Positions 50,366 to 62,405 of a stretch of DNA of 64,000 bases are shown piece by piece. Source of the stretch: Rhodococcus ruber NBRC 15591 (GTDB taxonomy: Bacteria > Actinomycetota > Actinomycetes > Mycobacteriales > Mycobacteriaceae). The notes below the pieces were generated by a model. The model was not told where the DNA came from. It worked only from the letters and a program-made list of their open reading frames with translations, and ran no database searches. Within the stretch, counting starts at the first letter, position 1; each line of letters starts with the position of its first letter. The DNA is taken from positions 124,001-188,000 of the forward strand of contig NZ_BCXE01000001.1 of assembly GCF_001894945.1 (NCBI RefSeq). The letters are read 5' to 3'. Position numbers and translations under genes: made by a program.

Positions 50366-50539
50366 GCCCTACGCCCGGGCGGCCGGCGCCGGGCCGCAGG
50401 CCGCCGCCACCGCGAAGGTCCCGAGGGCCGTGCCCGTGACGAGGCGCTGGGTCCGCACGGCCCGCGGGGGCGTCGCCATGCGGCGCACCGGTCAGCTCGA
50501 CGACCCGACCCTCGCGCACGTCGTGTCGCACCTGCGGAT

Positions 50540-50664
50540 GTCGTCGGGCGCGTAGCCCGCCGGCCCCCGCGCGTGCGCACGTCTCGCACCGATTCCGAAG
50601 GCAGCGCCACGGGATGTGCGCCCTCGGTGCGCGTGGAGTCATCCTTCTGTGCATTCCCAGCCAT
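50540..50664 (-). pseudogene. relic of an AraC-type regulator gene (5' end only)
   Basis: From the ATG at 50662-50664 the leftward frame reads MAGNAQKDDS then TRTEGAHPVALPSESVR. The functional AraC gene at 55894 begins MTDSAPKDDS then PCTAEAGRPVALSVREL. The DNA around the start is also similar (GAGTCATCCTTC, then ATGTTC on the plus strand). After about 30 residues the frame turns into Arg-rich sequence with no cupin or HTH domain. The start, promoter motif and N-terminus of a third AraC copy therefore survive and the rest has been lost. The left boundary is approximate. Confidence 0.55.
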
Positions 50665-50685: not shown

Positions 50686-50703
50686 CTAGTGTTCCAGATC
50701 ACA
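50686..50703. promoter_or_regulatory. conserved island promoter motif, copy 1 (IclR promoter)
   Basis: CTAGTGTTCCAGATCACA. The core AGTGT-N6-TCACA (50688-50703) fits the GTG-N8-CAC pattern of CRP/GlxR sites. It lies 23 nt upstream of the relic AraC start and 64 nt upstream of the IclR start. Copies 2 and 3 are identical over all 18 bp. Confidence 0.6.
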
Positions 50704-50767
50704 AGCATCCGGCGGCGGGCCGTGCGCATCCGAGGCCTCCGCCGCGACCGAAAGGACGGACCTGGAC

Positions 50768-51595
50768 GTGGCGTCACTGCAGACGGTGCAGAGGATCGGA
50801 CCGGTGCTGGACCTGTTCACGGTGCAGCAACCCGAGTGGGGGGTCTCCGAGGTCGCGGCGGCGATCGACGTTCCCCGATCGAGCGCGCACGCTCTGCTGT
50901 CGAGCCTGGTCGACACGGGGCTGCTCCAGTGCCGCGTGCGCGGACGCTACCGGCTCGGGTGGCGCGTCGTGGAGCTGGGGGAGACGCTGCGCGGCACCGT
51001 CGACGTCCGGTCCTGTGCCGCCCCCGTCCTCGAGCGTCTGGTGGAGAAGTACGGAGAGACAACTCATCTCGCGGTCATGGATCGATGGAACGTCCTCTAC
51101 GTGGACAAGATCCTCGGCAATCACAACATCACCGTGCAGGGCGCCCGGGTCGGGACGCGCCTGGACGCGCATTCCACGGCGGTGGGCAAGGTGCTGCTTG
51201 CGCAACTCGAGGAGATCGAGGTGCGCCGGTACCTGGCCATGCGTCCGTTGCGGCGGCTGACACCGTCGACCACCACGAACCCCCAGGCACTTCTGGACGC
51301 CCTGGCCGGTGTGCGCTCGGCCGGCTTCGCTGCGGACCTCGGGGAGACCGTCTCCGAGGTGCACTGCGTCGCCGCCCCGGTGCGCGACGACCTGGGCTCC
51401 GTCGTGGCGGCCGTGAGCGTGAGCGTGCCCGCGACGCGCTTCGCCCAGCGGCGACCGCAGCTCGAGCGGGCCGTGGTCGGCGCCGCGCACGAGATCACCC
51501 GGGCGATCGCCGAAGCCCACGACTGCAGTCCCGTACCGCTGCGGGACGACCCGAGTGCCGCCGCTCTCGTGGAGGCGAGTCCGCGCGCCTCCTGA
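50768..51595 (+). CDS. IclR family transcriptional regulator
   Basis: A 275-aa regulator starting at a GTG (MASLQTVQRIGPVLDLFTVQ), with AAAGGACGG upstream. The winged HTH is GVSEVAAAIDVPRSSAHALLSSLVDTGLL. The IclR effector domain includes HLAVMDRWNVLYVDKILG, RLDAHSTAVGKVLLAQLEE, and GFAADLGETVSEVHCVAAPVRD. It is directly upstream of the lower-pathway genes (44-bp gap). It probably regulates them, as IclR proteins do in other aromatic clusters, including alkylphenol clusters of Rhodococcus. Confidence 0.9.
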   Translation: MASLQTVQRIGPVLDLFTVQQPEWGVSEVAAAIDVPRSSAHALLSSLVDTGLLQCRVRGRYRLGWRVVELGETLRGTVDVRSCAAPVLERLVEKYGETTHLAVMDRWNVLYVDKILGNHNITVQGARVGTRLDAHSTAVGKVLLAQLEEIEVRRYLAMRPLRRLTPSTTTNPQALLDALAGVRSAGFAADLGETVSEVHCVAAPVRDDLGSVVAAVSVSVPATRFAQRRPQLERAVVGAAHEITRAIAEAHDCSPVPLRDDPSAAALVEASPRAS

Positions 51596-51639
51596 TCACG
51601 ATCCGACTGCACGAACACGACAAGCGAAAAAGAGGAGCC

Positions 51640-52434
51640 ATGGACACCGCCGCCCACAAGGCCGCAGACCGACTGCTCGAGGTGTATCGCACGGGGGAGC
51701 CGATCGATCCGCTCACCCCCGATCATCCCGACGCGTCGATCGAACTCGCCTACCGGATCCAACAGCTGCAGGTCGAGCAGTGGACGCTGGCCGGCGATGT
51801 CGTCAAGGGCCACAAGGTGGGCTTGGCCTCCCGCGCGATCCAGCGGCAGATGGGTGTCGATCAACCCGATTTCGGGCATCTGACCGCGAGCATGTTCCAC
51901 CTCGAGCATCAGCCGATCCCCGCCGGCCGCTTCCTGCAGCCGCGGATCGAGCCCGAGGTGGCGTTCGTGCTCGGCAGGCCGCTGGCCGGTCCGGGCGTCA
52001 CCGCCGCCGAAGCTGCGCGGGCCGTGGACTTCGTGCTGCCCGCACTCGAGATCGTCGACTCGCGGATCCGGGACTGGAAGATCGGCATCTTCGACACCAT
52101 CGCGGACAACGCCTCGTCCGGCGGCGTGATCCTGGGGAGCCGGCCGGTCTCCCTCGGTGACGTCGACCTGAGGCTGATCGGATGCACACTCCACATAGGC
52201 GGTGAACTCATGGCGACGGGAGCCGGCGGAGCCGTCCTCGGGTCCCCGCTCAACGCGCTGGTGTGGCTGGCCAACACGGTCGGCCCGCTCGGGGTCACCC
52301 TCGAACCGGGGCATGTGGTGCTTCCCGGCTCCATGACCAGGGCGTTTCCCGTGGCGGCGGGCAACTCCATCGTGGCGAACATCAGCGGGCTCGGCAGCGT
52401 CACCGCCGTGCTCGGCGGAAAGGACGAGAAATGA
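51640..52434 (+). CDS. 2-keto-4-pentenoate (2-hydroxypenta-2,4-dienoate) hydratase
   Basis: Lower meta-cleavage enzyme that adds water to 2-hydroxypenta-2,4-dienoate to give 4-hydroxy-2-oxovalerate. The 264-aa protein starts MDTAAHKAADRLLEVYRTGE after AGAGGAG. KGHKVGLASRAIQRQMGVDQPDFGHL and RIEPEVAFVLGRPLAGPGV are MhpD/BphE-type segments with metal-ligand glutamates. LEIVDSRIRDWKI and TIADNASSGGVILG follow. It overlaps the related decarboxylase gene by 4 bp. Confidence 0.9.
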   Translation: MDTAAHKAADRLLEVYRTGEPIDPLTPDHPDASIELAYRIQQLQVEQWTLAGDVVKGHKVGLASRAIQRQMGVDQPDFGHLTASMFHLEHQPIPAGRFLQPRIEPEVAFVLGRPLAGPGVTAAEAARAVDFVLPALEIVDSRIRDWKIGIFDTIADNASSGGVILGSRPVSLGDVDLRLIGCTLHIGGELMATGAGGAVLGSPLNALVWLANTVGPLGVTLEPGHVVLPGSMTRAFPVAAGNSIVANISGLGSVTAVLGGKDEK

Positions 52435-53219
52435 GCGACCAGTCGTGGAGCGCGGCCCGCGTCGCCGACGTGCTTCTGCGGGCGGAGGACACGGCGACCC
52501 CGCAGACGTCGATCCTCGCGGAATGGGACGGACTGGACCTGGGGACCGCGTACGCCGCGCAGGACATCGCGTTGCGCATGCGGCTCGCCCGCGGCGAGCG
52601 GCTCACCGGCGTGAAGCTCGGGGTCACGTCTAAGGCAAAGCAACGGCAGGTGGGCGTGGACTCGCCGTCCACCGCGTGGCTCACGGACAGGATGATCCTG
52701 CCGATCGGCGAGCCTGTCCCGCGCGAGAAGATGATCCACGCTCGCGCGGAGCCGGAGATCGCGTTCGTCATGGGCCGCAGGCTCGAGGGGCCGGGCGTCT
52801 CGGCCGCGACCGCACTGGCCGCGGTGGAGCACGTGGTCGGCGCGATCGAGATCATCGACAGCCGCTTCTCCGGCTACCAGTTCTCGATGATGGACGCCGT
52901 CGCGGACAACAACTCGTCCGGACGGTACGTGACCGGTCCGGTCGGCCGCGCGCCGGAGGATCTCGATCTCGCCCTCGAGGCGTGTCTGCTCGAGATCGAC
53001 GGCGAGGTGGTGGATTCGGCAACGGGCGCTGCGGTACACGGACATCCCGCGGAGGCGCTGGCCTTCGCCGTGAACACCCTGGCCGAGCGGGGACTCGCCA
53101 TCGAGGCAGGGTGGGTGGTGCTCACCGGCGGCATGACCGACGCCGTGCCGGTGCAGCCGGGGGCGCGCATCGCCGCGCACTTCACCACCCTCGGCACCGT
53201 CACCGTGGCGGGAGGCTGA
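52431..53219 (+). CDS. 4-oxalocrotonate decarboxylase
   Basis: A 262-aa homologue of the preceding hydratase, of the DmpH/XylI type; the two enzymes form a complex in known pathways. TGVKLGVTSKAKQRQVGVDSP, IHARAEPEIAFVMGRRLEGPGVSA and EIIDSRFSGYQFSMMDAVADNNSSG distinguish the decarboxylase branch. It converts 2-oxo-3-hexenedioate to 2-hydroxypentadienoate. It starts at the ATG at 52431 and is followed after 2 bp by the tautomerase gene. Confidence 0.88.
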   Translation: MSDQSWSAARVADVLLRAEDTATPQTSILAEWDGLDLGTAYAAQDIALRMRLARGERLTGVKLGVTSKAKQRQVGVDSPSTAWLTDRMILPIGEPVPREKMIHARAEPEIAFVMGRRLEGPGVSAATALAAVEHVVGAIEIIDSRFSGYQFSMMDAVADNNSSGRYVTGPVGRAPEDLDLALEACLLEIDGEVVDSATGAAVHGHPAEALAFAVNTLAERGLAIEAGWVVLTGGMTDAVPVQPGARIAAHFTTLGTVTVAGG

Positions 53220-53221
53220 CG

Positions 53222-53419
53222 ATGCCGCTCATCGACGTGACGATCGCGGAGGGGCGCAGCCCGGACGAGCTCCGGAGGCTGATCCACGAACTGACCCAGG
53301 CGGCGCACCGGGCCCTGGACGCGCCGCTGCCCAACATCCGGGTGGTGCTGCGGGAGACGCCGAAGACACACTTCGCCGCAGGCGATGTGACGATCGCCGA
53401 GCGTGAGACACGGGCCTGA
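53222..53419 (+). CDS. 4-oxalocrotonate tautomerase
   Basis: A 65-aa small tautomerase. After Met removal the catalytic Pro1 is exposed (MPLIDVTIAEGRSPDELRRL). The Arg residues (IRVVLRE) and the length match 4-OT. It isomerises 2-hydroxymuconate in the dehydrogenase branch of meta cleavage. With the decarboxylase and hydratase before it, and a muconic-semialdehyde-type dehydrogenase at the right edge, the dehydrogenative branch is complete down to 4-hydroxy-2-oxovalerate. Confidence 0.9.
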   Translation: MPLIDVTIAEGRSPDELRRLIHELTQAAHRALDAPLPNIRVVLRETPKTHFAAGDVTIAERETRA

Positions 53420-53550
53420 ACGGTCCGGATATCCCGGACTGCGACAGCGCCGGCCGGCGACGACGTCGAGCATCGTGATCGAGCCGCATCGGGGCGGGGA
53501 AGCGGGATACACAAGGGAGACACCATCCCCTGCGTCCCCTGGAGAACCCG

Positions 53551-54816
53551 ATGACGTCGAACCCACAGCGCGCCCTCACCCTGGTTGCCGAGCCCGAGCC
53601 CGGCTGCGAACGGGTGGCGGACCGGATGTACCACGACCTGCTTTCGCCACCGGAGGTGCAACAGGTGCGCGACCGCGTCCGGGACTTCGCCGCTCGGGCT
53701 GTCTCGCCGATCGCCGGCCGGATCGCCGGCGGGGACGAGCGCCTCGACGGGTTCCCCCGGGACGCGTTCGAGGTCATGGCCTCGAACGGTCTGTTCCGCC
53801 TTCCCTTCACCGCGGACGTCGGTGGCGACGGACTCACGCACCGCGCCACGGCCACCGCGGTGGCCGTCGAGGAACTGGCGTACTACTCCAACAGCGTCGC
53901 CGCGATCTACGACGTCCATTGCATCCTCGCCGGCACGGCACTGGACCAGGGCACCGAGGAGCAACGGCGCCGATGGCTGCGTGCCGTCGTCGACGGGGAG
54001 ATCGTCGGATCGTTCGCGACGAGCGAGCCCGGTGCCTCGAGCGATCTGTCTCCCGAGGCGGTGCAGACCGTCGCGAGCCCGGACGGCGACGGGTGGGTGC
54101 TCACCGGCCGCAAGCGGTGGATCACCAATTCGGTCGTCGCCGGTGTCGTCGTCGTGCTCGCCCGGACCGGCGACAGCCTCACCACCTTCATCGTTCCCAC
54201 CACCGCACCGGGCGTCACCGTCGGCACACCCGACCGCAAACTCGGCAACCGCGGGCAGATCACGGCCGACGTGATCCTCGACCGTGTTCCGCTCGGGCCG
54301 GAATCGGTGCTCGGGCGGGTCGGCGGTGGCCTGCGCGTCGCGCTCCGGACACTCACCTACGGCCGCATCGGAATCGGCGCCGCCGGCGTCGGCATGGCGC
54401 AGGCCGCCTTCGACCGGACCGTCGCGCATCTGAAGTCGCGGCACGCGTTCGGTGGTTCGCTGGCCTCCAAACAGCATTGGCAGTTCGTGATGGCCGACTA
54501 CGCGGCAGATCTCGAGTCCGCCCGTAGCCTGTACCTGAAAGCGGCGCTCCGGCTCGACGCGGGGGAACACTTTCCCGAGCCCGAAGCGGCGATGGCAAAG
54601 CTGCGCGGAACCGACCTGGCGGCGCGCATCGCCCGGGATGCCGTGCAGGCGTTCGGCGGACTCGGATTCGTGCAGTCCCTCGGTGCCGACGACACCGAAG
54701 GCCCGGTCGAGGCGATCTACCGGGACAGCAAGATCGGCGAGATCTACGAGGGAGCCAACGAGATTCAGAAATGGGTGCTCGCCCGGCAGATTTTCGGGCG
54801 GGACCACACCGGATAG
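53551..54816 (+). CDS. acyl-CoA dehydrogenase family protein
   Basis: A 421-aa FAD enzyme. The mid-domain reads GSFATSEPGASSDL and GRKRWITNSVVAGVVVVLART. The C-terminal helical domain has the catalytic region IYRDSKIGEIYEGANEIQKWVLARQIFG, with the base Glu in EIYEGANEIQ. It starts at the ATG at 53551 after CTGGAGA. Substrate is unknown. Its place behind a meta-cleavage operon suggests an acyl-CoA from an alkyl side chain or a ring-cleavage product. It is convergent with the AraC gene. Confidence 0.9.
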   Translation: MTSNPQRALTLVAEPEPGCERVADRMYHDLLSPPEVQQVRDRVRDFAARAVSPIAGRIAGGDERLDGFPRDAFEVMASNGLFRLPFTADVGGDGLTHRATATAVAVEELAYYSNSVAAIYDVHCILAGTALDQGTEEQRRRWLRAVVDGEIVGSFATSEPGASSDLSPEAVQTVASPDGDGWVLTGRKRWITNSVVAGVVVVLARTGDSLTTFIVPTTAPGVTVGTPDRKLGNRGQITADVILDRVPLGPESVLGRVGGGLRVALRTLTYGRIGIGAAGVGMAQAAFDRTVAHLKSRHAFGGSLASKQHWQFVMADYAADLESARSLYLKAALRLDAGEHFPEPEAAMAKLRGTDLAARIARDAVQAFGGLGFVQSLGADDTEGPVEAIYRDSKIGEIYEGANEIQKWVLARQIFGRDHTG

Positions 54817-54845
54817 GTTTCGGCAGTTCTGTGGGGGCTGGTCGT

Positions 54846-54859
54846 CGCTCGTGCGAGCG
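54846..54859. terminator. short hairpin after the acyl-CoA dehydrogenase gene
   Basis: CGCTCG-TG-CGAGCG between convergent genes; 6-bp stem with a 2-nt loop, weak. Confidence 0.25.
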
Positions 54860-54886
54860 TGGACGGCCGGCCCTCGCCGGTGACGA

Positions 54887-55894
54887 CTACCCGCGCACGG
54901 CGGGGTTCAGGCGGAAATGTGCAGGGCTGGAGCCGAACCGGCGACGGAACGCGCGGCTGAAATGCGATACGTCCCGGAACCCGACGTGGACACTGATCGC
55001 AGTGACGGTGAGATCGGTTTCCAGCAGCATCGTTCGGGCGCGGCCGAGTCGCACCTCGTACAGCCACGTGCGGGGAGTGGTTCCCGCCGTGCTGAACAGT
55101 TTGTGGATGTAGCGCAGCGACATTCCCAGTTCCATGCCGATCTCGGCGAGCGTGTGATCGGGATCGTGCAGGTACCGGGCCATGGTGGCCTGGACCTTGC
55201 GCAGGTCGTCCGCGTGCGCCCGCTTCGTGGCGTTCAGCGGAGTCACCCGGTCGCTGATCGCGGTGACGAGCAGGTCCAGCGCCGCGGCGGCCACAGAATC
55301 CGAGGTTCCACCGGACAGGGGGGTTTCGGTGGCGGCCACGTCGACCAGAAAACGCGACACCAGTCGCCCGATGCCGGTCTGCCCCGAAATGCCGTGGCCC
55401 GTCACGCTCTCCACCGCGTCGAGCGGCAGTCGGGACGTGAGCTGCCGGCGCGGCGCCCGCAGTACGATCTGCTCGAATTCGGTTGTGCCGTCGACGACGA
55501 ACGGCGTCGACGAGTCCACGACGCCGAAGGCGCCGTTCTCGAGGATCGCCGTCCGCGGCCCCTGCGTCAGGGTGGCGGAACCCTGAGTGATGAGGCACAG
55601 CAGGAAATCGTCGTTGGGATCCGAATCGATCATCGCGGGGGTCCGCACCACCGTGTGCGGATCGGCGCGCACCACGCTCACGATCACGTCGCCGATCGGG
55701 CGAGCGACCAGATCGGCAGCAAACCGGTCGTTCGATCGGGACCAGTCGACGTCCATCTCGCAGTAGGTCCGGTCGAGCGTATCCGCCCACCGCGCACGGC
55801 CTTCGGCGGATTCGAGTTCACGAACGCTCAGCGCCACCGGTCGACCGGCCTCCGCGGTGCACGGGGAGTCATCCTTCGGTGCACTGTCGGTCAT
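54887..55894 (-). CDS. AraC-type activator divergent from the P450 operon
   Basis: A 335-aa regulator. The N-terminal cupin-like AraC-binding domain includes DPHTVVRTPAMIDSDPNDDFLL and GAFGVVDSSTPFVVDG. The C-terminal double HTH reads TLAEIGMELGMSLRYIHKLFSTAGTTPRTWL and [24 protein letters not shown]. The ATG at 55892-55894 is preferred over a GTG at 55906, because the other two copies of this start region share the ATG position. It is most likely the aromatic-responsive activator of the gcoA-like P450 genes, comparable to the AraC gene beside gcoAB in Amycolatopsis. Confidence 0.9.
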   Translation of the reverse strand: MTDSAPKDDSPCTAEAGRPVALSVRELESAEGRARWADTLDRTYCEMDVDWSRSNDRFAADLVARPIGDVIVSVVRADPHTVVRTPAMIDSDPNDDFLLCLITQGSATLTQGPRTAILENGAFGVVDSSTPFVVDGTTEFEQIVLRAPRRQLTSRLPLDAVESVTGHGISGQTGIGRLVSRFLVDVAATETPLSGGTSDSVAAAALDLLVTAISDRVTPLNATKRAHADDLRKVQATMARYLHDPDHTLAEIGMELGMSLRYIHKLFSTAGTTPRTWLYEVRLGRARTMLLETDLTVTAISVHVGFRDVSHFSRAFRRRFGSSPAHFRLNPAVRG

Positions 55895-55915
55895 GTTCCT
55901 GCTCACCTCCTCCTC

Positions 55916-55933
55916 CTAGTGTTCCAGATCACA
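55916..55933. promoter_or_regulatory. conserved island promoter motif, copy 2 (P450 promoter)
   Basis: CTAGTGTTCCAGATCACA, identical to copies 1 and 3 and again 23 nt from the AraC start codon. On the plus strand, GATACC (55952-55957) lies 18 bp downstream as a possible -10. The motif would then overlap the -35 region of the P450 promoter. Confidence 0.6.
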
Positions 55934-56026
55934 GGAACTCGGCGGGCGGACGATACCGCGAGACGCACCGTCTGCGCGACCCTCGACCGTCGCCTCCGGA
56001 CGAGCCGACGACAGGAGAACGACATC

Positions 56027-57241
56027 ATGACCACCACCCACACCTGGATCGACGAGATCACCATGGAGGAACTGGATCGCGACCCGAATCCGATCTATGA
56101 GCGCCTCCGCCGTGAAGCCCCGGTCGCGTATGTGCCCGCAGTGGGGATGCACGTCGTGGCGACCCGCGAGTTGTGCCTGCAGATCACGCAGGACCCGCAG
56201 GCGTGGTCCACCGTGATCGCCCCCTCGGGAGGCCGGACGTTCGGCAAGGGAACGGTTCTCGACTCCAACGGCGAGCAGCACCGCAGGATCCGGGAGTGGA
56301 TCGATCCGCAACTGCGTCCCGCCGCCGTCGACACCTATGTCGAGGCCCTGGTCCGGCCGCAGGCGCAGCGGATCCTCGAGCGCATCGAAGACCTCGGAGC
56401 CGCCGACATCCAGGAGGCATACTTCGCGCCGGTCAGCGTCCGCGCCGTCGGCGACCTCATGGGCCTGACGGACGTCCCGTCCGAGACGCTCGTGCGCTGG
56501 TTCCAGACGCTCGCCCTGTCCTACGGCAACGCCGCGGTCGACGAGCACGGCAACTTCGCAGATCCGGCACCCTTCGAGGCCGGTGACAGGGTCAAGGAGG
56601 AGATCGTCGCGACGGTCGACCCCATGCTCGACCACTGGACCGCCCACCCCGACCACACCCTCATCTCGCACTGGCTGCACGACGGGATGCCCGAGGGACA
56701 GGTGCGCGATCGCGCCGAGATCTACCCGAACATCTACGTGTTCCTGCTCGGTGCTCTGCAGGAGCCGGGCCACGTCATGACGACCACCCTGGCGGGCCTG
56801 CTGCAGCACCCCGACCAGCTCGAACGGGTCGTCGACGATCCGGCCCTCGTGCCGCGCGCGATCAACGAGGGCGCTCGGTGGGTGGCGCCGATCTGGAGCG
56901 CTGCGGTGAAGGTCGCGAACCACGATGTCACGATCGGCGGTGTCGACCTGCCTGCGGGTACACCCGTGATACTCGCCTACGGCTCGGCGAACCGGGACGA
57001 GACCGCCTGGGAGAACCCGGACGCCTACGACGTGGATCGGCCGGTCATGCCGCATCTCGCGTTCGGCTCCGGCAACCATGCCTGTGCCGGAACCTACCTC
57101 GGCACCGCGATCGTCCGCATCGCGCTCGAGGAGCTGTTCGAGACGATCCCGAACATCGAGCCCGATCTCGACCACACGCCGGACTTCTGGGGCTGGACCT
57201 TCCGCGGCCCGCAGGGATTGCGTGTGCGGTGGGAGGTGTGA
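56027..57241 (+). CDS. gcoA: cytochrome P450, GcoA/AgcA-like aryl-O-demethylase (CYP255 type)
   Basis: A 404-aa soluble P450. Heme ligand Cys353 is in AFGSGNHACAGTYLG. Instead of the usual I-helix AGxDT it has LLGALQEPGHVMTTT, the unusual GALQEPGH stretch also seen in GcoA. Recalled alignment with Amycolatopsis GcoA is nearly gap-free: ITMEELDRDPNPIYERLR, APSGGRTFG, ISHWLHDGMPEGQVRDRAEI and FWGWTFRGP. GcoA active-site Phe75 and Phe395 are kept (Phe72, Phe392). Phe169, which shapes substrate size, is Tyr166 here. Predicted reaction: O-demethylation of guaiacol-type lignin phenols to catechols plus formaldehyde. The reductase partner follows directly. Confidence 0.88.
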   Translation: MTTTHTWIDEITMEELDRDPNPIYERLRREAPVAYVPAVGMHVVATRELCLQITQDPQAWSTVIAPSGGRTFGKGTVLDSNGEQHRRIREWIDPQLRPAAVDTYVEALVRPQAQRILERIEDLGAADIQEAYFAPVSVRAVGDLMGLTDVPSETLVRWFQTLALSYGNAAVDEHGNFADPAPFEAGDRVKEEIVATVDPMLDHWTAHPDHTLISHWLHDGMPEGQVRDRAEIYPNIYVFLLGALQEPGHVMTTTLAGLLQHPDQLERVVDDPALVPRAINEGARWVAPIWSAAVKVANHDVTIGGVDLPAGTPVILAYGSANRDETAWENPDAYDVDRPVMPHLAFGSGNHACAGTYLGTAIVRIALEELFETIPNIEPDLDHTPDFWGWTFRGPQGLRVRWEV

Positions 57242-57243
57242 CA

Positions 57244-58272
57244 GTGGAACATTCGGTGACCGTCTCGGACGGGGAACGGCCCTTTCGTGCCGCAGCGGAC
57301 CGCTCCATCCTCGAATCCGCGCTACGGGAGAACCGGTGGCTCCCGCATGCCTGCTCGCAGGGCACGTGTGGCACCTGCAAGATCCGCGTGCTGTGCGGGG
57401 AGGTGGACCACGGGCGGGTGGACGATACGGTCCTTTCCGAGACGGAGCGTGCGAGCGGGCTCGCGCTGGCCTGCCAGGCGAGCCCGCGCACCGATCTGAC
57501 CGTCGCGCCGTTGAGCGAGACTGCGCCGGTCGGCCCGAGGCATCCGTTGCGCGATCACGCCGGCACCGTGCTCGAGCTGACCGACATCGCCCGGTGCACC
57601 CGCCGGCTCGTCGTGGAGCTGGACGAGCCGATGGAATTCTCCGCCGGCCAGTACGCCGAGCTGGTTGTGCCGGGTTCCGTGGTGGCACGCCAATATTCGA
57701 TGGCCAATCCGCCGTCCGAGTCGCGTCGGCTCGAGTTCCACATCAAGAAGGTCGACGGTGGGCTCGCGACGGAGGGGTGGATCTTCGGCTCGCTTCGCCC
57801 GGGAGACCGGATCGAGTTGCGCGGGCCGCTGGGGCAGTTCGCCCTGGTTCACCCCCAGGAGGAACCGGCCATCCTGATCGGCGGCGGGACGGGACTAGCC
57901 CCCTTGAAGTCGATTGTGCGCCATGCTCTCTCCAGCGATCTCGTCCCGAGCATCGACCTGTACCACGGAGGGCGCGGGCAGGCGGATCTGTACGACGTGG
58001 ACTTCTTCCGGGCACTCGAGGCTGCCGATTCCCGATTCCGCTACCACCCCGTGCTCAGCGAGGAGCAGTGGGACGGCGCGACCGGCATGGTCACCGACGT
58101 CGTGCTCGACGACTTCGCCAGTTGCCGGGGGCGCAGCGCGTACCTGTGCGGACCACCCGCCATGGTCGCCGCGGCGGTCAAGGCGCTCAAACGGCGTCGC
58201 ATGGCGCCCCGGTCGATATTCAAGGAGGAGTTCACCGTCGGCGCCGCGCCGCCGGTGCTGTCGCCGACGTGA
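57244..58272 (+). CDS. gcoB: GcoB-like three-domain P450 reductase (2Fe-2S, FAD, NAD)
   Basis: A 342-aa electron donor for the P450. The N-terminal plant-type ferredoxin domain has Cys37, Cys42, Cys45 (HACSQGTCGTCKIRV) and Cys77 (LALACQA). The FAD domain has VARQYSMANPPSE. The NAD domain has IGGGTGLAPLKSIVRHAL and YLCGPPAMVAAAVKAL, ending KEEFTVG. This domain order is that of GcoB rather than of the usual separate ferredoxin and reductase. The GTG at 57244 lies 2 bp past the P450 stop, so the two are translated together. Confidence 0.9.
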   Translation: MEHSVTVSDGERPFRAAADRSILESALRENRWLPHACSQGTCGTCKIRVLCGEVDHGRVDDTVLSETERASGLALACQASPRTDLTVAPLSETAPVGPRHPLRDHAGTVLELTDIARCTRRLVVELDEPMEFSAGQYAELVVPGSVVARQYSMANPPSESRRLEFHIKKVDGGLATEGWIFGSLRPGDRIELRGPLGQFALVHPQEEPAILIGGGTGLAPLKSIVRHALSSDLVPSIDLYHGGRGQADLYDVDFFRALEAADSRFRYHPVLSEEQWDGATGMVTDVVLDDFASCRGRSAYLCGPPAMVAAAVKALKRRRMAPRSIFKEEFTVGAAPPVLSPT

Positions 58273-58282
58273 CCGGTTCTGC

Positions 58283-58317
58283 GGCCGGGTGTTCGGGTTC
58301 GTCCCGGGCACCCGGCC
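58283..58317. terminator. hairpin between convergent reductase and AraC genes
   Basis: GGCCGGGTG and CACCCGGCC form a perfect 9-bp stem with a 17-nt loop, positioned to end both transcripts. Confidence 0.55.
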
Positions 58318-58325
58318 GTTCGCCG

Positions 58326-59348
58326 TCAGTGCCGGTGGCCCGGTGGGCGGTCGGTTCTTCCCTTGCGGTACTGACCGGGGCTGGAGCCGAAGGAGGCGCG
58401 GAACGTCCTGCTGAAGTGGGAGACGTCCCGGAAACCCGCGCATTCGCTGACCTCCGCGACGGACATCTCGGTCGTCAGCAGGTACTTCCGCGCGCGTTCG
58501 AGGCGGGCCTGGTACAGCCATGCCCGGGGGGTGATCCCGGCCGCGCTGAACAGTTTCTGCACGTTACGCAACGACATCCCGGCGTCGGCCGCGACGTCCG
58601 ACAGCGTGAGCTCGGGATCGTGCAGTTTCTGTTCGATGACCCGCTGGACGCGGGTGAGGTCCTCGGTGCGATGCAGTTGCGAGGCGCTGGTCGCGAGCGG
58701 TCCCTTCGCGAGCGCGGTGGCCAGCATGTCGACGGCCGAGGAGGCGAACGACACGGCGGCCCCCGGCGAGATCGGCGCCGTCGTGGTCGAGAGGTCGACG
58801 AAGAATCGGCCGACCAGTTCGCCGGCCCCGGTGTCGCCGCCGATCGACCGGGCGGTGCCGTGCTCGACGATCCGGCCGGGTAGACGTGAGGTGAGCAGCT
58901 CGGCGGGGGACCGCACCACGATCTGCCGGAACGGCGCGGGGGAGTGGAAGACGAACGGTGCGGAGCAGTCCAGCAGCGCGAATCCCCCGCGCTCGAGAAC
59001 GGTGGCTCGACCGGACTGCTGCACCTCGACGCGGCCCTCGGTCACGATGCACACGAGGTAGCCCGCCCAGTTGTCCGAGGCGATCATCTCGGGGGACCGC
59101 ACCACGGTGTGGGCGTCGGCGCGGATCGTGCTGATGTGCAGGTCCCCGAAGGGCCGTCCACCCCACTCGGCGTCGAAGTGCTGCCGCGGATCGGGCCACG
59201 CCACGTCCATCTCGCCGTACAGCAGCTCGAGGGTGCTCGCCCACTGTGTGCGGCCTTCGCGGGTGTCGAGCTCCCGCGTGCGTAGGGACACGAGGGCGGG
59301 CGCCGCTCCGTTGCGCGCGGAGTCACCCGATTGTTCGCGCTCAGCCAT
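58326..59348 (-). CDS. AraC-type activator divergent from the flavin monooxygenase operon
   Basis: A 340-aa paralogue of the regulator at 54887. The N-terminal domain includes [22 protein letters not shown] and [15 protein letters not shown]. The C-terminal HTHs are [24 protein letters not shown] and [25 protein letters not shown]. The ATG at 59346-59348 ([14 protein letters not shown]) lines up with the other copies. It probably activates the HpaB/PheA1-type hydroxylase genes in response to a phenol, like PheR-type regulators of Rhodococcus. Confidence 0.9.
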
Positions 59349-59369
59349 GTTCCAGCAGACCTCCGCCTT

Positions 59370-59387
59370 CTAGTGTTCCAGATCACA
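59370..59387. promoter_or_regulatory. conserved island promoter motif, copy 3 (hydroxylase promoter)
   Basis: CTAGTGTTCCAGATCACA, identical to copies 1 and 2, 23 nt from the AraC start. On the plus strand GATATACC (59407-59414) follows about 20 bp later as a possible -10. The hydroxylase start is 170 nt downstream; nothing else is recognised in that leader. Confidence 0.6.
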
Positions 59388-59557
59388 GGGACTTGGCGTC
59401 CGGAACGATATACCGACATCGCGCCGAAGGCGACATCCGAGAGCGGATCCCCAATCAGGGCAACGCAATCGGTGCCGACCGCGTCGCAGCGCGACGCCGG
59501 TCGATCCCGCCGGTCCCCGAAACGACTCTCCACCGCCCGAGACCAGGAGTGAACATC

Positions 59558-61120
59558 ATGACGACATCAGCGATCATCGGCGACGCCGTGGGAGCACCCA
59601 ACACCGTCCGTCCCATGACGGGCGAGGAGTACATCGAGTCGCTGCGCGACGGTCGCGAGGTGTACTTCCGTGGTGAGCGGGTCGACGACGTCACCACGCA
59701 CCCGGCCTTCCGAAATTCGGTTCGGTCGGTGGCACGGATGTACGACGCGATGCACAAGCCGGAGGCGAAGGGCATCCTCACAGTGCCGACCGACACCGGC
59801 AACGGTGGCTTCACCCATCCGTTCTTCAAGACGGCACGCAGCGCCGACGACCTGCTCCTCGCCCGCGACGCGATCGCCACGTGGCAGCGCGAGGTGTACG
59901 GCTGGCTGGGCCGCTCGCCCGACTACAAGGCGTCGTTCCTCGGCACCCTCGGAGCCAACGCCGACTTCTACGGCGAGTACAAGCAGAACGCCCTCGACTG
60001 GTACAAGAAGTCCCAGGAGCGGGTGCTCTACCTCAACCACGCGATCGTCAACCCGCCGATCGACCGCGACAAGCCCGCCGACGAGACCGCCGACATCTGC
60101 GTGCACGTGGTCGAGGAAACCGACGCGGGTCTGATCGTGTCGGGCGCGAAGGTGGTGGCGACCGGTTCGGCGATCACGAATGCCAACTTCATCGCGCACT
60201 ACGGCCTGCCGCTCCGCAAGAAGGAGTTCGGCCTGATCTTCACCGTCCCGATGGATTCACCGGGGCTGAAGTTGTTCTGTCGTACGTCCTACGAGATGAA
60301 CGCCGCCGTCATGGGTACGCCGTTCGACTACCCGCTGTCGAGCCGATTCGACGAGAACGACGCGATCATGGTGTTCGACCGGGTGCTGGTGCCGTGGGAG
60401 AACGTCTTCGCCTACGACGCCGAGACGACCAACGGGTTCGTCATGAAATCCGGGTTCATGTCGCGCTTCATGTTTCACGGTTGCGCCCGTCTCGCCGTGA
60501 AGCTCGACTTCATCGCCGGCTGTGTGATGAAGGCGGTGGAGATGACCGGCTCGGCCGGATTCCGCGGGGTGCAGATGCAGGTCGGCGAGATCCTCAACTG
60601 GCGCGACATGTTCTGGGGACTGTCCGACGCGATGGCGAAGACGCCCGATCCGTGGGTGGGCGGGGCCGTGCAACCGAACCTGAACTACGGCCTGGCGTAT
60701 CGGACCTTCATGGGTGTGGGCTATCCGCGGATCAAGGAGATCATCCAGCAGACTCTCGGCAGCGGTCTGATCTACCTGAATTCCCATGCGAGCGACTGGG
60801 GCAACCCCGACATCCGGCCGTACCTCGACCGGTACGTGCGCGGGTCGAACGGCATCGCGGCCATCGACCGTGTCAAGCTGCTCAAGCTGCTCTGGGATGC
60901 CGTCGGCACCGAGTTCGGCGGCCGGCACGAGTTGTACGAGCGCAACTACGGCGGTGACCACGAGGCCGTGCGCTTCCAGACGCTGTTCGCCTACCAGGCC
61001 CAGGGCCTGGACAACCAGCTCAAGGGCTTCGCCGAGCAGTGCATGTCCGAGTACGACGTCGACGGCTGGACGCGCCCCGATCTGATCGGCAACGACGATC
61101 TGAAGATCGTCCGGGGCTGA
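59558..61120 (+). CDS. two-component flavin-dependent (alkyl)phenol 3-monooxygenase, oxygenase component (HpaB/PheA1 family)
   Basis: A 520-aa FADH2-utilising hydroxylase that ortho-hydroxylates phenols to catechols. Start [15 protein letters not shown] after ACCAGGAG. Family segments: [82 protein letters not shown] and a long helical C-domain with [16 protein letters not shown] and [15 protein letters not shown]. Substrate is not fixed by sequence: 4-hydroxyphenylacetate, phenol and 4-alkylphenols are all used by relatives. The genomic context (GcoA-like P450, AraC, IclR, meta-cleavage genes) resembles Rhodococcus alkylphenol (aph) clusters and supports a phenol or alkylphenol. Confidence 0.9.
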
Positions 61121-61133
61121 ACGGAGCGAGACG

Positions 61134-61661
61134 ATGAGGAGCACTGCTGTGGCCGATCTCGAGGTCACTCCACAACATATGCGAAAAGCGCTTGGGCGGT
61201 TCGCGAGCGGCGTCACCATCGTCACCACCGCCGAGTGCGAGGACGAGGCTTCGGTGCACGGGATGACCGCCAACGCCTTCACCTCGGTGTCGCTCGACCC
61301 GCCGCTCGTGCTCGTGTCGATCGCCAACCGCGCCAGGATGAACGAGCGGATCCGGGAGACCGGTAGGTACGGGGTTTCGATCCTCGCCGGGGACCAGGAA
61401 CCGTTGTCCCTGCACTTCGCCGGTGCGGCACACCAGCCGGATCTGGTCCGGTTCGTGTGGCGGAAGGAAGTGCCCCTCCTCGAGGGCGCGCTGGTGCACC
61501 TCGCGTGCACGGTGGTCGACTCCCATCCCGCGGGTGACCACACGCTGCACGTGGGCCGGGTGGAGCAGCTCTGGTACGACGACGGGCACCCCCTGGTGTT
61601 CTACACCGGCAGTTTCCGGTCGCTCGAGTTGCAGGGCAGGGACGACCCCTGGGGCTTCTGA
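61134..61661 (+). CDS. NAD(P)H:flavin reductase partner of the monooxygenase (HpaC/PheA2 type)
   Basis: A 175-aa flavin reductase that supplies FADH2. HMRKALGRFASGVTIVTTAE, HGMTANAFTSVSLDPPLVLVSI and LEGALVHLACTVVDSHPAGDHTLHVGRVE are the split-barrel family motifs. It starts at the ATG at 61134, 13 bp after the oxygenase stop, with ACGGAGCGAG before it. It forms the two-gene hydroxylase operon with the preceding gene. Confidence 0.93.
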   Translation: MRSTAVADLEVTPQHMRKALGRFASGVTIVTTAECEDEASVHGMTANAFTSVSLDPPLVLVSIANRARMNERIRETGRYGVSILAGDQEPLSLHFAGAAHQPDLVRFVWRKEVPLLEGALVHLACTVVDSHPAGDHTLHVGRVEQLWYDDGHPLVFYTGSFRSLELQGRDDPWGF

Positions 61662-61789
61662 TCGAGGTAGAGCGGGGGTGGCCGCGGCGGGTGTCGCGGC
61701 CACCCTCCCGCGTATCCGACGGAATCCCTCCGTGCCCTGTCTGCGGACATCTGGTTCGCAGGAGGGACGCGACGCCAGGTGGGCGCATC

Positions 61790-62405
61790 CGGGCGGTCGC
61801 AGCGGGACGGGGCGGGGAGTTGTTCCCGGTGGTCGAATCGATCCGGCGGCGCCCGCTCGACCGGTCACGGCCGCTGTGGGAGCTGTGGGTGATCCCGGGG
61901 CTCGGAGAGCATTCACATGCGGTCTACCTGCGGGTCCACCATGTGATCGCCGACGGCCCGGCGGGGGTGGCGATGCTCGGCGTGCTCCTCGACGCCGCCC
62001 CGGACGTGCCGCTGACGCCCGCGCCGCCTCGGCACGAGGAGAAGATCGACGATGTGCTGCTCTCGGTCTTCGCCGGGGGGCTTGCGCGAACTGCTGTGTC
62101 GCCGGGGCGAACCGGCCGACGACGTCGTGCTGCGGGCGGTCGTCCCCGTCTCACTGCACGGGCAGCAGTCGGGGCCGGCCCGCGGAAGCCTGCTCGGTCA
62201 GATGATCGTTCGGCTTCCGGTGGGCAACACCAGCCTCGGTGCGGGCGCGTTCTCGTACGCGGGGCGGTTCACGATCACCGTCGTCGGCGACAGTGTCGTG
62301 TGTCCCGAAGTGGACGTGGTGGCTCGCGGGATGGAGGAGGCGCCGCGAGTGCTCCGCGGCGGATGCCCGAGCGAATGTGCCGTGGTGTCGGGTAGACCGA
62401 CGTGA
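61790..62405 (+). pseudogene. decayed wax ester synthase/diacylglycerol acyltransferase (WS/DGAT) gene
   Basis: Fragments of a WS/DGAT: ELFPVVESIRRRPLDRSRPLWELWVIPGL and LRVHHVIADGPAGVAMLGVLLD, the latter containing the catalytic HHxxxDG. Then IDDVLLSVFAGGL, and in another frame LRELLCRRGEPADDVVLRAVVPVSL and FTITVVGDSVVCPEVDVVARGM. The frame changes at a G6 run (62075-62080); removing one G restores GGLRELL. The normal N-terminus and at least two internal blocks are missing (about 200 codons against roughly 450-470), so it is a pseudogene even without the frameshift. It lies between the hydroxylase operon and the convergent tautomerase gene. Confidence 0.75.

Follow-up and report, generated by a model that had tools for sequence, protein, structure and literature searches.

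The 64,000-nucleotide stretch analysed here, called the window throughout (Rhodococcus ruber NBRC 15591, contig NZ_BCXE01000001.1, positions 124,001 to 188,000), carries three identical copies of an 18-bp block, CTAGTGTTCCAGATCACA, each lying between the start of an intact or relic AraC-family regulator gene and a catabolic operon, and the question it raises is what this block does. We propose, with a probability of roughly 80%, that the block serves as core promoter for the three operons, which would be activated through AraC-bound direct repeats located inside the start of the araC genes. An earlier sequence-only reading had placed unchanged copies at 50686, 55916 and 59370. Our search of the window recovered exactly these, all in the same orientation, with no fourth match at up to three mismatches and no match in 100 shuffles, and the whole 5.33-Mb genome contains no further exact copy and four extra matches at two or three mismatches. 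The spacing of 23 nt to each AraC start claimed at the same time is indeed constant, but its value is 21 nt, counted between the block and the start codons that end at 50664, 55894 and 59348. It is also correct that an AraC gene, one of them decayed, adjoins each block (two encode intact proteins and site 1 holds a relic), and that each block faces a catabolic operon, namely an IclR/lower-pathway operon at site 1, a cytochrome P450 with its reductase at site 2, and an HpaB-type hydroxylase with its flavin reductase at site 3. Exact 17-mers of the block occur at 10 places in 121 genomes, nine of them AraC-linked. A literature search with the letters of the block matched no paper. Two near copies in the same genome precede an aldehyde dehydrogenase gene (L004 1501-1518, C20) and, as TGTGATCTGGAACACA, a gene for an MspA-family porin (L006 1501-1518, C32). 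An inverted repeat around the block, GTTCC-N8-GGAAC, was set aside, being present in some alignment rows only and not conserved.

In most rows of the alignments of agc, aph and lower-pathway promoters, two 15-bp direct repeats of the form TGCR-N6-GYCAT recur with a period of 22 bp, at -59 and -37 from the hexamer TAGTGT of the block, and this hexamer is invariant across the aligned sites. At all three window sites the end of the proximal box lies 22 bp from TAGTGT. The repeats have the A box-N6-B box arrangement of XylS/CphR-type promoters, with a B box of GYCAT, not GGNTA. Actinobacterial sigma-A uses a -10 element of the form TANNNT, located 6-8 nt ahead of the start. If the proximal repeat is placed as in the CphR promoter (-49 to -35), TAGTGT would occupy -12 to -7 and transcription would begin near the positions given in Table 1. 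The composite expression (TGCR-N6-GYCAT)-N7-(TGCR-N6-GYCAT)-N22-TANNNT, allowing up to three mismatches, finds these three places only in the genome and none in the reversed control, and the next best place in the window has six mismatches.

This arrangement is conserved in relatives. Eleven loci with a close relative of AgcR, as we call the regulator of site 2, were compared from Rhodococcus, Antrihabitans, Gordonia and Millisia; the remaining 52 of 63 loci encode distant AraC proteins and were excluded. The 16-mer TGTGATCTGGAACACT is identical ahead of AgcR in 10 of the 11 and carries two changes in L012. Mean pairwise identity is 0.83-0.98 for the boxes and 1.00 for both TAGTGT and TCACA, against 0.41-0.67 for the 22-bp spacer, in an alignment from which L016 and the lower-pathway site of L017 were excluded and in which one spacer base was skipped in the L010 and L011 rows for register. 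A search of 401 family genomes for the composite with TAGTGT, at up to three mismatches, gave 62 places in 30 genomes, compared with three in the reversed control. We examined 29 of the 30 loci returned by this family-wide search; an AgcR/AphR-like protein starts at the proximal box in 19 of them, eight are orphans and two (L149, L167) resemble chance matches. TCACA, which was absent from the search pattern, stands exactly 6 nt past TAGTGT in 26 of the 29.

Read along araC, the proximal box comprises the start codon and codons 2-5, and the distal box codons 8-13. Codons 4, 5 and 8 end in T, A and T in all of 10 AgcR genes, with the residue at codon 8 varying among D, V and L; among genes for AphR, the regulator of site 3, all 8 have A and T as third bases of codons 5 and 8, with G, N, D or H encoded at codon 8 (L016, a near copy of L009, and L013 were left out of this test). 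In the bodies of the AgcR and AphR genes, A ends 9% and T ends 10-11% of codons. In the box codons it is the DNA rather than the protein that is held constant. The fixed distance of the block from the AraC starts would then arise because the proximal box overlaps the araC start codon.

The boxes have also been kept where the gene is gone. Site 1 of the window preserves recognisable AraC sequence for only about 20-27 codons from the start, and tblastn with AgcR and AphR found no AraC sequence past the first codons at site 1 of the window, L008 or L009 (nothing below E ~0.7); in L009 a stop stands at codon 6, between the boxes. Despite this loss all three retain the boxes, and in the window both boxes, the predicted -10 and TCACA all remain. 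Site 1 of L010 and L011 holds an intact third AraC (48-57% identity). Composites away from any AraC gene are found at L177 3775 and 6046, L178 3692 and 5971, L179 4190 and L180 3879. In R. opacus-like genomes the genes downstream of such orphans are a glyoxalase/dioxygenase-family gene, AphC-like by our reading, and one for an aldehyde dehydrogenase; a different genome has an orphan ahead of an alpha/beta hydrolase gene. One Millisia orphan faces a flavin reductase. For L017, the gene faced by the second ("lower") site is a flavin reductase and not the IclR operon. A short frame on the + strand at ~50463-50558 of the window resembles, by our reading only, a fragment of an AraC helix-turn-helix, but its strand is not that of the lost araC.

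A similar geometry is seen in promoters of the PheR/GuaR class, which have a period of 20, a spacer of 21-22 and mostly a -10 of TATGGT with TCACA after 5 nt; TATGGT-N5-TCACA occurs at five genome places and at none in the control. The proximal repeat lies 21-22 bp before the -10 in three own-genome and 19 other-genome promoters. There are nine AraC_binding_2 matches in the genome, and loci L087, L088 and L089 (C2, C32 and C3), which are two AraC/flavin-reductase (PheR/PheA-like) promoters and a second AraC/P450 promoter, have the repeat-22-TANNNT geometry with a 20-bp period.

Several observations weigh against the core-promoter reading or restrict it. A loose repeat-spacer-TANNNT expression matches five of eight own-genome AraC_binding_2 promoters, the five best-scoring (background 3/522 regions), but it was widened after three of these five matches had been inspected. 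Used unchanged on 27 same-genus loci of other genomes it matches 19 (reversed 0/27, reverse-complement 0/27, shuffles 0.09%), a result that is confirmation rather than a set of independent draws, the 27 being related promoters; the geometry finds no match in the other 8 of 27, or in 3 of the 8 own-genome promoters. The repeat period is 22 bp here as opposed to 20 bp in the PheR, GuaR and CphR promoters, and a -10 plus an operator alone leave TCACA unexplained. The distal box is weaker or degenerate in some Gordonia agc rows, and the spacer of site 1 is 23 rather than 22 in L010 and L011. No composite was found at aphC of the same genome (C1:191424, just past the window), so the regulon differs between genomes. 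Finally, the published prediction for the aphA promoter of R. rhodochrous EP4 is a different one, with CAGGAG as -10 (PMC6710988, accessible text); in the window CAGGAG is found at 59544-59549, the ribosome-binding position ahead of the hydroxylase start codon.

The sequence-only reading had fitted AGTGT-N6-TCACA to a CRP/GlxR-type site. All 24 AphR/AgcR-class promoters do carry the motif, which agrees with 8 of the 10 consensus positions, and 17 of 22 PheR/GuaR-class promoters have a 16-mer of 8/10 at their -10 (background 0-0.2%; L016 and the agc site of L017 were left out of the tally), but the full TGTGA-N6-TCACA palindrome is absent from all of these 24 and 22 promoters. A Crp-type protein (cNMP_binding and HTH_Crp_2) is encoded in the genome, where TGTGA-N6-TCACA has 17 places, none of them the three sites, compared with one in the reversed control. 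TANNNT-N6-TCACA was rejected as a general promoter rule, as it occurs at 11 places versus seven in reversed controls and is unenriched unless its middle is GTG (6 of the 11). These GTG cases, the recurrence of the dyad, the Crp-type protein and a two-mismatch copy of the block ahead of an aldehyde dehydrogenase gene would all suit a block that is mainly a CRP/GlxR site, conserved for catabolite control and matching a -10 incidentally. We consider this improbable, since the two deviations from the consensus, A and T, are the two key -10 bases, the TATGGT of PheR/GuaR promoters is without GTG, the exact 17-mers are so largely AraC-linked, and the adjacent repeats and their fixed spacing are left unaccounted for. 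The odds that a CRP/GlxR-family protein has a genuine role at these promoters are, in our estimate, about even. The position of the dyad over the -10 and start would suit repression, and the overlapping element is a possible second layer of control, probably a repressive one. TGTGA-N6-ACACTA is found at three further places, ahead of an aldehyde dehydrogenase gene and, by our reading, a phosphotransferase-like gene and a sulfur-metabolism-like operon. In the genome of the window a perfect TGTGA-N6-TCACA lies at C19:103120-103135 (L106), ~200 bp ahead of a further AraC_binding_2 gene.

On the opposite strand the block reads AACACT, which had been taken as the -10 of the divergent araC gene. AACACT has A2 and T6 of TANNNT and lies at a fitting distance from the araC ribosome site, but T1 is missing. 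In addition, all 10 distinct orphan sites, which lack an AraC frame, retain TAGTGT-N6-[TC]CACA, TAGTGT itself being part of the search pattern for most of these sites. A better candidate for the araC -10 is the minus-strand TATCGT that follows many blocks at a distance of 14-17 bp; a minus-strand TANNNT beyond the block is present at 12 of 33 long-frame sites (including L017_lower and L177_6046, which are probably not AraC, and leaving out L016) and at none of the 10 orphan sites. The AACACT assignment is unsupported by these data, and we regard it as very improbable. Even less credence attaches to the idea that the three copies are passive, functionless relics of a recent duplication of an araC promoter. 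The two araC genes are paralogous, their intact proteins being 45% identical, and L010 and L011 keep a third; but the spacers and the DNA downstream of the start have diverged (mean identity 0.39-0.67) whereas the boxes, TAGTGT and TCACA have not, a contrast that holds across Rhodococcus, Antrihabitans, Gordonia and Millisia.

We therefore favor the core-promoter reading, in which the boxes, their geometry and conservation, the codon constraint and the gene loss are read from the DNA, and binding, start sites, activation, the regulator of site 1 and repression by CRP are predicted. Each 18-mer would comprise, for the operon that it faces, the -10 TAGTGT and the region in which transcription starts, with TCACA at its end. 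AgcR or AphR is predicted to bind the two repeats, 22 bp apart, and thereby to switch the promoter on, from a putative operator that lies within codons 1-13 of the divergent araC and overlaps its start codon. At site 1 the araC gene has been lost, and its first codons would persist as operator DNA through which the surviving regulators could drive the lower pathway together with both upper-pathway operons. A CRP/GlxR protein may shut the promoters through the dyad over -10/+1, as a weaker layer. The earlier suggestion of a common operator linking the operons stands in so far as a shared regulon of the three is supported; the block itself is not the likely AraC operator, for which there is a better candidate just upstream, inside araC.

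With an operator written in the regulator's first codons, duplication of araC and its promoter would give a new operon a complete switch. We tentatively suggest, at somewhat less than even odds, that regulons grow in this way and then shed regulators, a later deletion of araC leaving behind fossil operator DNA to which the sister regulators bind. One case would be site 1, its AraC being intact in L010 and L011 and lost in the window, L008 and L009, and the R. opacus-like orphans before ring-cleavage-dioxygenase-like and aldehyde dehydrogenase genes may be others; in every such promoter the -10 may also be merged with a CRP-like dyad. The control of a biotechnologically useful cluster for lignin aromatics (alkylphenol/alkylguaiacol) would be relocated to an operator inside the regulator gene, so that deleting or replacing araC, or cloning the intergenic region only, would leave the catabolic operon without its switch. 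The 76-bp composite also offers a signature by which the regulon can be predicted in Rhodococcus, Gordonia and their relatives, and the analysis yields a probable example of DNA that has outlived the gene it encoded through double use as an operator.

Table 1. Promoter elements and genes of the cluster (window coordinates; -10 elements and starts are predictions).
Feature	Position	Strand	Basis or remark
Site 1 distal AraC box TGCGCGTGGAGTCAT	50628-50642	+	exact TGCR-N6-GYCAT; orphan (araC lost)
Site 1 proximal AraC box TGCATTCCCAGCCAT	50650-50664	+	ends on relic araC start codon
Site 1 predicted -10, TAGTGT	50687-50692	+	geometry as CphR; start near 50699
Site 1 CRP-like 16-mer AGTGT-N6-TCACA	50688-50703	+	8/10; over -10 and predicted start
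IclR-family regulator, AphS-like, first gene of operon 1	50768-51595	+	profile match; name from PMC6710988 (accessible text)
Hydratase-like, meta-cleavage lower pathway	51640-52434	+	profile match
Decarboxylase-like, meta-cleavage lower pathway	52431-53219	+	profile match
Tautomerase, meta-cleavage lower pathway	53222-53420	+	profile match
AraC-family regulator divergent from P450 operon (AgcR)	54887-55894	-	profile and protein comparison
Site 2 distal AraC box TGCACGGGGAGTCAT	55858-55872	+	within araC codons 8-13
Site 2 proximal AraC box TGCACTGTCGGTCAT	55880-55894	+	overlaps araC start codon
Site 2 predicted -10, TAGTGT	55917-55922	+	start expected ~55929
Site 2 CRP-like 16-mer	55918-55933	+	8/10
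Site 2 candidate araC -10, TATCGT	55950-55955	-	weak
Cytochrome P450, AgcAB/GcoAB-like pair	56027-57241	+	profile; names from papers, accessible text
2Fe-2S/FAD/NAD reductase, AgcAB/GcoAB-like pair	57244-58272	+	profile; names from papers, accessible text
AraC-family regulator, AphR/NphR-like	58326-59348	-	profile and protein comparison; name from papers, accessible text
Site 3 distal AraC box TGCGCGCGGAGTCAC	59312-59326	+	
Site 3 proximal AraC box TTCGCGCTCAGCCAT	59334-59348	+	overlaps araC start codon
Site 3 predicted -10, TAGTGT	59371-59376	+	start expected ~59383
Site 3 CRP-like 16-mer	59372-59387	+	8/10
HpaB-type flavin-dependent phenol hydroxylase oxygenase, AphA-like	59558-61120	+	profile match
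Flavin reductase component, AphB-like	61134-61661	+	profile match

The genes of Table 1 correspond to the aph/agc cluster for alkylphenols and alkylguaiacols that has been described in R. rhodochrous EP4 and in strain RHA1. Operon 1 encodes the IclR regulator, two enzymes of the FAA-hydrolase fold and the tautomerase. AraC_binding_2, HTH_18 and HTH_AraC all score above cut-off in both intact AraC proteins, which places them in the AraC/XylS family. Just past the flavin reductase gene, 61691-62392 holds a fragment of a wax ester synthase/DGAT catalytic domain that covers profile positions 86-173 of 263 only and is probably a decayed gene.

How the module relates to known systems can be judged from four comparisons. 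XylS/Pm of the TOL plasmid works with Gram-negative sigma factors and has its operator outside the regulator gene. It is like the window sites in its 15-bp repeats, with TGCA and GGTA 6 bp apart, beside the core promoter of an aromatic pathway (PMC5481539, accessible text). PheR and GuaR of R. opacus PD630 are likewise activators of the AraC type, encoded divergently from operons for phenol hydroxylase and P450 (cyp255), and their deletion abolishes or lowers induction, as described in the available part of PMC9582017, which gives no mapped operator. EP4 and RHA1 share the agc/aph cluster itself and its regulators AphR, AphQ and AphS, and 4-ethylphenol induces aphAB and the P450 pair (PMC6710988, PMC13101465, accessible portions). 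No published mapped aph/agc promoter or account of the module was found in the openly accessible literature, a scope outside which subscription papers fall (e.g. on NphR and PheR). The promoter of cphA2A1 in Rhodococcus sp. YH-5B, as described in the accessible text of PMC6205950, shares an AraC-type activator (CphR), a divergent two-component phenol hydroxylase and A box-N6-B box repeats of which the proximal touches the -35; these 15-bp repeats lie at -69 to -55 and -49 to -35, and mutating them lowers activity. It differs in its period of 20 bp and its TGCA-N6-GGNTA repeats, compared with 22 bp and TGCR-N6-GYCAT here, and in that the window repeats lie inside the coding start of the regulator. 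The module thus appears to be an AraC/XylS-type promoter that is known in kind, the unusual feature being an operator that sits in the regulator's coding start and seems to have outlived the regulator gene.

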